Assembly: GCA_029556545.1 (NCBI GenBank)
Contig: JAKQEQ010000129.1
Location: 1 to 33,440, forward strand
DNA from: Candidatus Hydrogenedentota bacterium
GTDB taxonomy: Bacteria; Hydrogenedentota; Hydrogenedentia; Hydrogenedentales; JAGMZX01
Direction: 5' to 3'
Length of the DNA stretch: 33,440 bases
Below, piece after piece: positions 23,032-26,014 of the stretch (within the stretch, counting starts at the first letter, position 1; each line of letters begins with the position of its first letter). The notes under the pieces were generated by a model. It did no database searches. It had not been told where the DNA came from and saw only the letters and a list, made by a program, of their open reading frames with translations. The translations under genes were made by a program, and so were the position numbers.

Positions 23032-23541
23032 ATGCGAAAGCTTCTCCTGGAAACGGTCCTGGTCGCGGGGCTCCTCGCGGGCTGCGTCGAGCATCCCGTC
23101 GAAGGGTCCGCGCCCGCATTCGATGCGCCAAACAAGGATTCAGAAATGACCGACAAGATCACGAAAACGGATGAGGAATGGCGGGCCCAGCTGACGCCCG
23201 AGCAATACCACGTCACGCGCGAAAAAGGGACGGAACGGGCATTCACGGGCAAGTACTGGAACACGAAGACGCCCGGCGTCTACAAATGCGTCTGCTGCGG
23301 GCACGAACTGTTCAACAGCGAGACGAAATTCGATTCCGGCTGCGGCTGGCCGAGCTTCCACGCGCCCGCCAACGATGCGGACATCGACGAAGCGGAAGAC
23401 CGCAGCTTCGGCATGGTGCGCACCGAAGTGACCTGCGCCCGCTGCGGCGCCCACCTCGGCCACGTCTTCCCTGACGGCCCCCAACCCACCGGCCTGCGCT
23501 ACTGCATCAACTCCGCGGCCCTGGAACTCGACGCAGAGTGA
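23032..23541 (+). CDS. msrB: peptide-methionine (R)-S-oxide reductase, lipoprotein form
   Basis: A 169-residue MsrB, which reduces the R form of methionine sulfoxide in proteins. The zinc site is complete: C86-x2-C89 (CVCCG) and C135-x2-C138 (CARC). The likely resolving C104 in SGCGWPSF and catalytic C158 in RYCINSAAL are present, as is [10 protein letters not shown]. The N-terminus carries a lipobox (LLAGC, Cys18), so the enzyme should be anchored outside the inner membrane and repair envelope proteins. The ATG at 23032 has GAGG seven bases upstream; the longer open frame before it is not coding. An internal ATG at 23145 would give a cytoplasmic form. A second, truncated copy of its 3' end lies at 24213-24395. 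Confidence 0.93.
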
Positions 23542-23556
23542 GGTGGAGGGATTACG

Positions 23557-24035: not shown

Positions 24036-24117
24036 CTGGATTCCCGCTTTCGCGGGAATGACGCTGGGGGCGAAATTGGCCCTCTTTTCCGTCATTCCCG
24101 CGAAAACGGGAATCCAG
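24036..24117. repeat. MITE-like element with 27-bp inverted repeats (dRS3-like)
   Basis: The left arm 24036-24062 and right arm 24091-24117 are inverted repeats of 27 bases with one mismatch, separated by 28 bases. Each arm is itself a hairpin: ATTCCCGC and GCGGGAAT around a short A/T-rich loop. This matches the widespread ATTCCC-N8-GGGAAT (dRS3/NEMIS-type) repeats. It carries no gene. It lies between the antitoxin body and a fragment of an antitoxin tail, so it probably inserted into, or mediated rearrangement of, the toxin-antitoxin operon. Confidence 0.85.
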
Positions 24118-24212: not shown

Positions 24213-24395
24213 TCCGCACCTGTCAACGACGCGGACATCGACGAGGTGGAAGACCGCGGTTTCGGCATGGTCCGCACCGAGGTGACCTGCGTCCGCTGCG
24301 GCGCCCACCTCGGCCACGTCTTCCCCGACGGCCCCCAGCCCACCGGCCTGCGCTACTCCATCAATTCAGCGGCGCTGGAACTCGAAGCAGAGTGA
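24213..24395 (+). pseudogene. msrB: truncated second msrB copy, catalytic Cys to Ser
   Basis: From about 24215 the sequence matches the last third of the upstream msrB (its 23363-23541) at most bases, reading [19 protein letters not shown], then [13 protein letters not shown] and [14 protein letters not shown] to a stop at 24393-24395. It keeps the second zinc pair CVRC but lacks the first pair and the GCGWPSF segment, and the catalytic Cys (Cys158 in the full gene) is Ser. Many differences between the two copies are silent, so the parent copy seems to have diverged under selection before it was cut. There is no start or ribosome site. It joins directly to the PIN toxin fragment. Confidence 0.85.
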
Positions 24396-24470
24396 GGCGG
24401 AAACATTGCGAGCTTCGCCGCTGGACCCCATAAAGGTTCAAAGAATCAAATAGTCAAATAACCTACATCA

Positions 24471-25243: not shown

Positions 25244-25273
25244 ATTATGAACCGTTGCCTGTCCGAAGGACAA
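25244..25273 (-). promoter_or_regulatory. possible promoter of the DUF1566 lipoprotein gene
   Basis: On the minus strand TTGTCC (plus 25268-25273) and CATAAT (plus 25244-25249) are 18 bases apart, 77 bases before the ATG at 25166. The -35 box lies within the terminal palindrome of the adjacent insertion element. Confidence 0.35.
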
Positions 25274-25907
25274 GATTATGATAGCCCAGGGCAACGCCCT
25301 GGGAGAAATAACCGGGAAACACCCGCCCTGAAAGGGCGATAGAAGGATTCTTCCCATCCCACAATCGCTATCGATGAATCTGATCCATCTCATTTACAGC
25401 ACGAAAAACCGGGATGCCTGCCTCACAGCCGCGATTCGACCGAAATTATTCGCATATCAGGCCGCTATCTTGCGGGAATGGGATAGTCGCGCGATCGTGA
25501 TTGGCGGTATCTCAGACCACCTACACACGTTGCTTGTGTTATCAAAGAACCACGCCCTATGTAAGGTTGTGGAAGAGGTCAAGAGGAGTTCCTCAAAATG
25601 GCTGAAGACACAGGGGCGATCATTTGCGGGATTTCATTGGCAAAATGGATACGGGGCCTTCTCCGTCAGCCAGTCCCATGTGGCACAAGTACGTCGCTAT
25701 ATCGAGAACCAAGAAGAACATCACCGCACAATGTCGTTTCAGGATGAATTCCGGTTGTTCCTGAGGCGATACAAACTCGAATGTGATGAACGGTATGTTT
25801 GGGATTGACCTATTGTTTCGCCCCTTCAGGGCTTCATTTTTCCGGGCGCCCCTATTCTCCCAGGGCGTTGCCCTGGGCTATCATATCCTTGTCCTTCGGA
25901 CAAGGCG
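25258..25907. mobile_element. IS200-like element bounded by inverted clusters of palindromes
   Basis: A Y1 transposase gene lies between two end regions that are inverted copies of each other. From outside in, each end holds three palindromes: a GTCC-GAAG/CTTC-GGAC hairpin (25261-25271; 25887-25905), the 19-base CCCAGGGC-AAC/GTT-GCCCTGGG hairpin (25285-25303; 25859-25877), and a GCCCT-GAA-AGGGC hairpin (25324-25338; 25820-25832, less perfect). Sequence between the first two is also shared. A further copy of the first palindrome sits at 25954-25970, outside the element. Base composition is lower in GC than the surroundings. Single-strand (HUH) transposases recognise such hairpins at their ends. 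Confidence 0.75.
25356..25808 (+). CDS. IS200/REP-type Y1 (HUH) transposase
   Basis: A 144-residue protein when read from the first ATG (25374). Its HUH motif is H49-L-H51 (SDHLHTLL) and the nucleophilic tyrosine Y109 lies in VRRYIENQEEHH, so catalysis looks intact. EEVKRSSSKW, FHWQNGYGAFSVSQS and FQDEFR...YVWD are family signatures. The usual N-terminus, M-P-Q-S-L-S followed by a strand ending STKNR, is encoded in frame upstream, but its first codon is ATC at 25356, with AAGGA about nine bases before it. Either ATC is used as a rare start, or an ATG was lost and translation falls back to 25374, removing six residues. It moves single-stranded DNA through a 5'-phosphotyrosine link; it lies within paired palindromes that fit its recognition ends. 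Confidence 0.82.
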   Translation: MPQSLSMNLIHLIYSTKNRDACLTAAIRPKLFAYQAAILREWDSRAIVIGGISDHLHTLLVLSKNHALCKVVEEVKRSSSKWLKTQGRSFAGFHWQNGYGAFSVSQSHVAQVRRYIENQEEHHRTMSFQDEFRLFLRRYKLECDERYVWD

Positions 25908-25953
25908 CAGCACGCCTCAATTACCGGCGGACACCAACATCCGCCCTCATGTC

Positions 25954-25970
25954 CTTGTCCTTCGGACAAG
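25954..25970. repeat. extra copy of the transposon-end palindrome
   Basis: CTTGTCC-TTC-GGACAAG is an exact copy of the palindrome at 25888-25904, 50 bases beyond the element's right end. It may mark a second, decayed end or a REP-like array. Confidence 0.7.
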
Positions 25971-26014
25971 ACGCCGGACGCCGCTTCCGCCACGATACAT
26001 TGAATCTCTTGCGG

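Follow-up and report, generated by a model that had tools for sequence, protein, structure and literature searches.

The transposase gene and its ends

The window (the whole stretch of 33,440 nucleotides that was analysed) holds an open reading frame for a Y1 (HuH) transposase, enclosed by inverted sets of hairpins. The features of the locus, with the basis for each, are:

25260..25272, + strand: left outer hairpin TGTCC-GAA-GGACA (sequence, inverted repeat, fold)
25281..25284, + strand: ATAG (NYAG) foot, guide-like, at the 5' base of the left middle hairpin and within the spacer ATTATGATAG
25285..25303, + strand: left middle (REP-like) hairpin CCCAGGGC-AAC-GCCCTGGG (44 exact genome copies, fold)
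25324..25338, + strand: left inner hairpin CGCCCT-GAA-AGGGCG, 6 bp (fold; related hairpins in dispersed copies and in relatives' loci)
25356..25358, + strand: ATC at the position of the ATG of the sister genome G001 (L031 against L063, L065 and L072)
25374..25805, + strand: Y1 (HuH) transposase, TnpAY1 subclass-1.2-like, 144 amino acids (ORF list, PF01797)
25806-25808, + strand: stop codon of the transposase
25820..25832, - strand: right inner hairpin, GCCC/GGGC stem of 4 bp, the weakest (sequence, fold)
25859..25877, - strand: right middle (REP-like) hairpin, inverted copy (sequence, inverted repeat, genome copies)
25878-25881, - strand: ATAG foot of the right middle hairpin
25887..25905, - strand: right outer hairpin CCTTGTCC-TTC-GGACAAGG (sequence, inverted repeat, fold)
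25954..25970, - strand: extra outer hairpin CTTGTCC-TTC-GGACAAG, in a 36-nt duplication at the right end

Each end carries three hairpins in mirrored order (outer-middle-inner and inner-middle-outer), as an earlier note on this DNA had described. The inverted arms, 25260-25307 and 25855-25902, are 48 nt long and 96% complementary, and both ends yield the hairpins when folded as single strands (z = -5.1 and -4.8, with 0 of 200 shuffles equally stable). The middle hairpin is made of an 8-bp stem, a 3-nt loop and a NYAG foot. The spacing that the earlier note called similar is roughly alike at the two ends without being identical, the gap from middle to inner hairpin being 20 nt on the left and 26 nt on the right. 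The extra outermost palindrome was likewise found further out, at 25954-25970, as part of a duplication within 25947-25982 (89% over 36 nt). Two other repeats lie in the same region of the window. A direct duplication of 187 nt, 90% identical (23361-23547 and 24215-24401), sits within and downstream of an ORF whose product was judged from its sequence to be methionine-sulfoxide-reductase-like, and the inverted pair GGATTCCCGCTTTCGCGGGAATGAC / GTCATTCCCGCGAAAACGGGAATCC at 24038-24115 belongs to another palindromic repeat type, without link to the transposase here.

In a profile search the ORF at 25374-25805 matches PF01797 (Y1_Tnp) with an E value of 7.7e-21. Its motifs are DHLH (residues 48-51), HWQ (88-90), YIENQEEHH (109-117) and a conserved C-terminus of about 30 amino acids, in which F122, E125, D138, Y141 and W143 are the conserved positions. 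Alignments of 25 and 35 relatives have H49, H51, Q113, H116 and H117 invariant, and the HuH motif DHLH at 48-51 together with Y109 of the Y1 fold invariant or nearly so; the HuH motif reads DHLH in the window and DHVH, DHIH, DHLH, DHMH and once NHLH in the relatives. An AlphaFold model (pLDDT 94.9) retrieved ISDra2/IS608 TnpA (E ~1e-8) and RAYT 4er8 (2.4e-5) in a structure search; its rmsd is about 5-12 Angstrom to IS200 structures against 3.2 to RAYT 4er8, a difference that may merely reflect the monomer model. By motif, tyrosine and predicted fold, the protein is a HuH Y1 enzyme. It scores 48.2 bits with the NCBIfam IS200 equivalog, under the cut-off of 55, and 24.5 bits with the REP_Tyr_transpos model, under the cut-off of 80. 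The gene is present in a single copy in its genome, G000 (6.1 Mb, 195 contigs), where the only other match is a second, distant Y1 protein with 30% identity (L032, G000:C25:13577-13819).

The start codon conserved in the relatives and in G001 is ATC in the window's gene. The next in-frame ATG lies at 25374, and its use drops six residues. Translation may start there or, since the window's gene lacks the start codon of its sister, the gene may be weakly expressed, inactive or impaired. The inspected catalytic residues are all intact and the frame is open.

Dispersed elements in the genome, compared with its sister

The middle palindrome GCCCAGGGCNNNGCCCTGGG occurs in 44 exact copies on 27 contigs of G000, with 42 of the copies lying away from the locus and spread over 26 further contigs; allowing up to 2 mismatches, matches number 52/51, against 1/2 for a reversed-pattern control. 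The dispersed copies mostly stand as facing pairs and form elements of 177-237 nt that have the anatomy of the locus without its transposase. Fourteen loci carry two facing copies 126-168 nt apart and two further loci a degenerate mate, the other copies having degenerate mates or lying at contig ends. A dispersed end consists of a 13-nt-class outer hairpin, a spacer of about 12 nt ending in ACATGAYAG or similar, the 8-bp middle hairpin with its AAC loop and, beyond some 20-26 nt, an inner GCCCTGAAAGGGC hairpin. The foot reads ATAG at the locus itself; its general form is NYAG, and GTAG is seen in some dispersed ends only. Among the outer stems of the dispersed elements (GCCCCGAAGGGGC, GGGCCGAAGGCCC, GGCCCTGAAAGGGCC) the sequence changes while the pairing is kept, which suggests a structural role for the outer hairpins.

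Similarity among copies at unrelated sites generally stops where the outer hairpins end on their outward side, 25-27 nt away from the middle hairpins, and no target motif beyond the outer hairpins was evident by eye in the table of ends. The exception is one longer subfamily, with flanks in common to about -103 and +157. The ends of contigs C27, C33, C37, C50, C51, C58, C75, C124 and C144 break within the subfamily of roughly 430 nt, so that its copy number is probably underestimated.

Two palindromes of the locus had been put forward as REPs dispersed through the genome. This is borne out for the GCCCTGGG palindrome, by the copies just described. The GGACAAG palindrome has no site in G000 outside the locus; its three sites there, like its two sites in the sister G001, are confined to this locus, which rules it out as a dispersed REP.

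In the sister genome G001 the transposase is 94% identical and its flanking sequence alike. Middle palindromes are few there, and none is dispersed at up to 1 mismatch; at the right end of the G001 transposase locus (L063:1138-1400) some five middle hairpins follow one another in tandem, at intervals of roughly 27-31 nt. The flanks of several G000 elements could be traced in G001. At the four sites compared (C150, C170, C103 and C142a) the element is missing in G001, and at C150, where G001 has an intergenic gap of 13 nt, G000 has several hundred bases, the element among them. Since the intergenic DNA is too diverged for the junctions to be read to the base, these comparisons serve as presence or absence only. 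Gain in G000 appears the simpler reading of the differences, with loss in G001 as the alternative, and we infer that the elements have transposed. A further genome, G011, has about 22 copies of the middle palindrome, and no transposase was found in its 88% complete draft.

Pairing of hairpins and transposase across genomes

G004 and G029, from another genus, have CCAGGGGCATCGCCCCTGG-type hairpins on either side of the transposase. The flanking CCAGGGGCnnnGCCCCTGG occurs there in 27 and 11 copies, and in at most 2 copies in any of the other 58 genomes; the middle palindrome of the window has no matches in G004 and G029. A search for inverted repeats around two of the G004 copies gave no intact mate. 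Inner-hairpin counts of at least 5 also accompany a strong transposase match (13/31 versus 2/29, p 0.0024). Read from these sequences, the pairing of middle palindrome with transposase is cognate, with G011 as the main exception. The earlier note had named palindromes present equally in strains lacking the transposase as a finding that would count against its proposal. On this point the outcome is mixed, G001 and G011 being discordant; the association across 60 genomes is clear.

These two genomes invite another explanation, in which a different transposase spread the elements and has since disappeared, the present gene being a relic next to old ends. It draws on the gene without dispersed copies in G001, on the copies without a detected gene in G011, and on the altered start codon in the window. 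We consider it very improbable, as the inspected catalytic residues are intact in an open frame, the locus and the dispersed elements have an identical palindrome, and the cognate pairing recurs in an independent genus.

The association extends well beyond these genomes. When 84,980 species genomes were scanned, at least 589 stretches matched and at least 583 of these encode relatives; the best 80 of the at least 589 matches include Planctomycetes, Verrucomicrobia, Acidobacteria, Bacteroidetes and Sumerlaeota. Usable flanks were available for 78 loci, and at 51 of these an inverted repeat of at least 13 nt is common to the upstream and downstream flanks; mispaired flanks gave 10.6 on average (maximum 17). 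Within 300 nt of the gene, 209 flanks hold 139 hairpins with an 8-bp stem and a 3-nt loop, 89 of them NAG-footed and 80 YAG, while the 177 flanks taken 900-1200 nt away hold 7, with a single NAG foot; the NAG foot was not a search criterion. The mispaired and far-flank controls rule out that the palindromes lie near the gene passively. In this set the stem sequences differ while their pairing is maintained (pair 4 is A-T, G-C, T-A or C-G), perfect stems having been a criterion of selection, and the stem sequence co-varies with the lineage of the transposase. Furthermore, the 6 nt upstream of the NAG foot agree at 4.8 of 6 positions within loci and at 2.0 of 6 between loci, a difference reached in 0 of 5000 permutations.

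The middle and outer hairpins together also resemble a catalogued Rfam family, RF01687 (Acido-Lenti-1), which matches both ends of the locus:

25259..25303, - strand: left middle and outer module, 25.3 bits, E 0.0019, below the gathering score of 37
25859..25903, + strand: right middle and outer module, 24.8 bits, E 0.0025, below the gathering score of 37

The 46-nt consensus of the family, two hairpins with an 8-bp stem, a 12-nt spacer and a 5-bp stem, coincides with the middle and outer hairpins. Thirteen dispersed copies in G000 reach or exceed the gathering score, as do both ends, on opposite strands, of two transposase loci (L169 and L174); two others, L164 (from an acidobacterium) and L199, have the family at one end. 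Among 60 genomes RF01687 was found in 35 of 41 that are transposase-positive and in 5 of 19 that are negative (p 1.3e-5, a guide only because related genomes are treated as independent, and including matches beside the transposase), and at an equal threshold in 0 of 14 control genomes. In G044, G050 and G052 the family occurs not only as facing pairs but also in tandem arrays with the copies on one strand, many of these arrays repeating about every 67-70 nt.

RF01687 was described in 2010 as "probably" an RNA, not cis-regulatory, in Acidobacteria and Lentisphaerae (PMC2864571), and later work has seen in it a potential regulator of genes, as in Tannerella, where it lies beside protease genes (PMC13298647). 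What is catalogued as a candidate sRNA of unknown function is read here as DNA of mobile-element ends. On the opposite interpretation the hairpins would be structured RNAs, as the catalogue has it, or terminators, with the transposase nearby by accident; the inner hairpins do lie near the ends of genes, where they could act as transcription terminators. Inverted pairs of modules on opposite strands nevertheless surround transposase genes in several phyla and recur as facing pairs in the dispersed elements, their stems follow the transposase lineage, and comparable sites of the sister genome lack the elements, so that we give this interpretation hardly any credence.

Known systems and a proposed mechanism

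RAYT/TnpAREP systems with their REPs and REPINs (Pseudomonas, E. coli, Stenotrophomonas) have in common with this one a single-copy Y1 enzyme, short dispersed inverted pairs, cognate specificity, a source locus flanked by repeats, and a middle hairpin with a tetranucleotide foot, a perfect 8-bp stem and a 3-nt loop. Facing hairpin pairs dispersed without the gene, as in REPINs, were found here. Canonical RAYTs, in contrast, are class 2 enzymes (Y...NP), whereas this one is class 1 (Y...Q..HH, YIENQ); canonical REPs have a GT[AG]G foot, here usually NYAG, and a single hairpin, here three per end in an element of about 180-240 nt. Judged on sequence, this is a system that works like a REPIN without being a canonical RAYT/REP. 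The earlier placement of the locus halfway between an IS200 and a RAYT-REP locus fits well, since the protein is class 1 in sequence, yet the locus, with its single-copy enzyme and dispersed cognate hairpins, behaves like that of a RAYT.

By motifs, length and copy number the transposase fits the published description of TnpAY1 subclass 1.2. That subclass was described as having no REP, as generally without terminal hairpins, as occurring mostly in Cyanobacteria and Bacteroidetes, and as having the HuH motif DH[IV]H (Quentin et al. 2018, PMC6006769). The protein of the window agrees with it in Y...Q..HH, the WQ motif, a C-terminal domain of about 30 amino acids, a length near 148 amino acids and low copy number. 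It differs in having relatives in Planctomycetes, Verrucomicrobia, Acidobacteria, Sumerlaeota and Bacteroidetes with cognate hairpin ends; as "generally without" is a survey result and not a defining feature, we take the hairpins as extending the description.

Subclass 1.1, the IS200/IS605 group, typically has near-identical genes in many copies, unlike the single copy here. An ordinary member of that family (IS608 and ISDra2 are examples), moving itself and leaving scattered, internally deleted MITEs or PATEs, would share the HuH/Y1 fold, the class-1 sequence and the guide-like bases 5' of a subterminal hairpin, and would explain why the tnpA element and the short elements have ends of like anatomy. 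The ends of IS608 and ISDra2 are asymmetric. Those of the present locus are inverted three-hairpin copies of one unit, the gene is in single copy, apparently at the equivalent position in G001 by its common flanking sequence, and non-autonomous copies outnumber it. The outer hairpin of the locus differs from all dispersed ones, so simple deletion at this locus does not account for the dispersed copies; no tnpB was seen between its ends, and the IS200 equivalog score stays under its cut-off. PATE-type derivatives of IS200/IS605 elements are known (PMC3119063). We regard an ordinary IS with deleted derivatives as unlikely here.

We think it probable that the locus is a REPtron-like source, in which a single-copy, IS200-related Y1 transposase mobilises non-autonomous elements with cognate ends, a REPIN-like system of a type new to the open-access literature. 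The transposase would be bounded by its own recognition ends, and the short elements with matching ends would be mobilised in trans by it or by a recent relative. The order of an element would be outer hairpin, ACATGAYAG-type guide, middle hairpin, inner hairpin, variable centre and mirror image. An end would become single-stranded, as on the lagging strand, and TnpA would bind the middle hairpin with its NYAG foot like a REP, on one strand of each end. The foot would guide cleavage by Tyr109 at a nearby dinucleotide, predicted from REP biochemistry to be cut between C and T, and the excised single-stranded element would be joined in at another site with no duplication of the target; in these steps the outer and inner hairpins may have roles. 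TnpAREP cuts single-stranded REPs between C and T, the Stenotrophomonas REP consists of GTAG, a perfect 8-bp stem and a 3-nt loop, and changes in the last two bases of its foot abolish cleavage (PMC8266576). The middle hairpin has the same geometry and keeps the AG of the foot. Against a REPtron-like source stand the gene without dispersed copies in G001, the copies without a found gene in G011, the undispersed outer palindrome of the locus itself and the altered start codon.

With somewhat less confidence, we lean towards a broader proposal, that subclass 1.2 is the enzyme of a separate REPIN-type system spread over several phyla, with three hairpins and NYAG feet, and that RF01687 is its DNA end module.

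If so, the repeat class at the breaks of the G000 draft assembly is explained, and the orphan RNA family RF01687 gains a testable explanation, our results suggesting that it really represents the ends of mobile elements. A transposase subclass reported as lacking REPs would be supplied with its partner DNA. Furthermore, a second class of Y1 enzymes, the IS200-like class 1, would join the REPIN-style systems, which bears on the origin of RAYTs from IS200.
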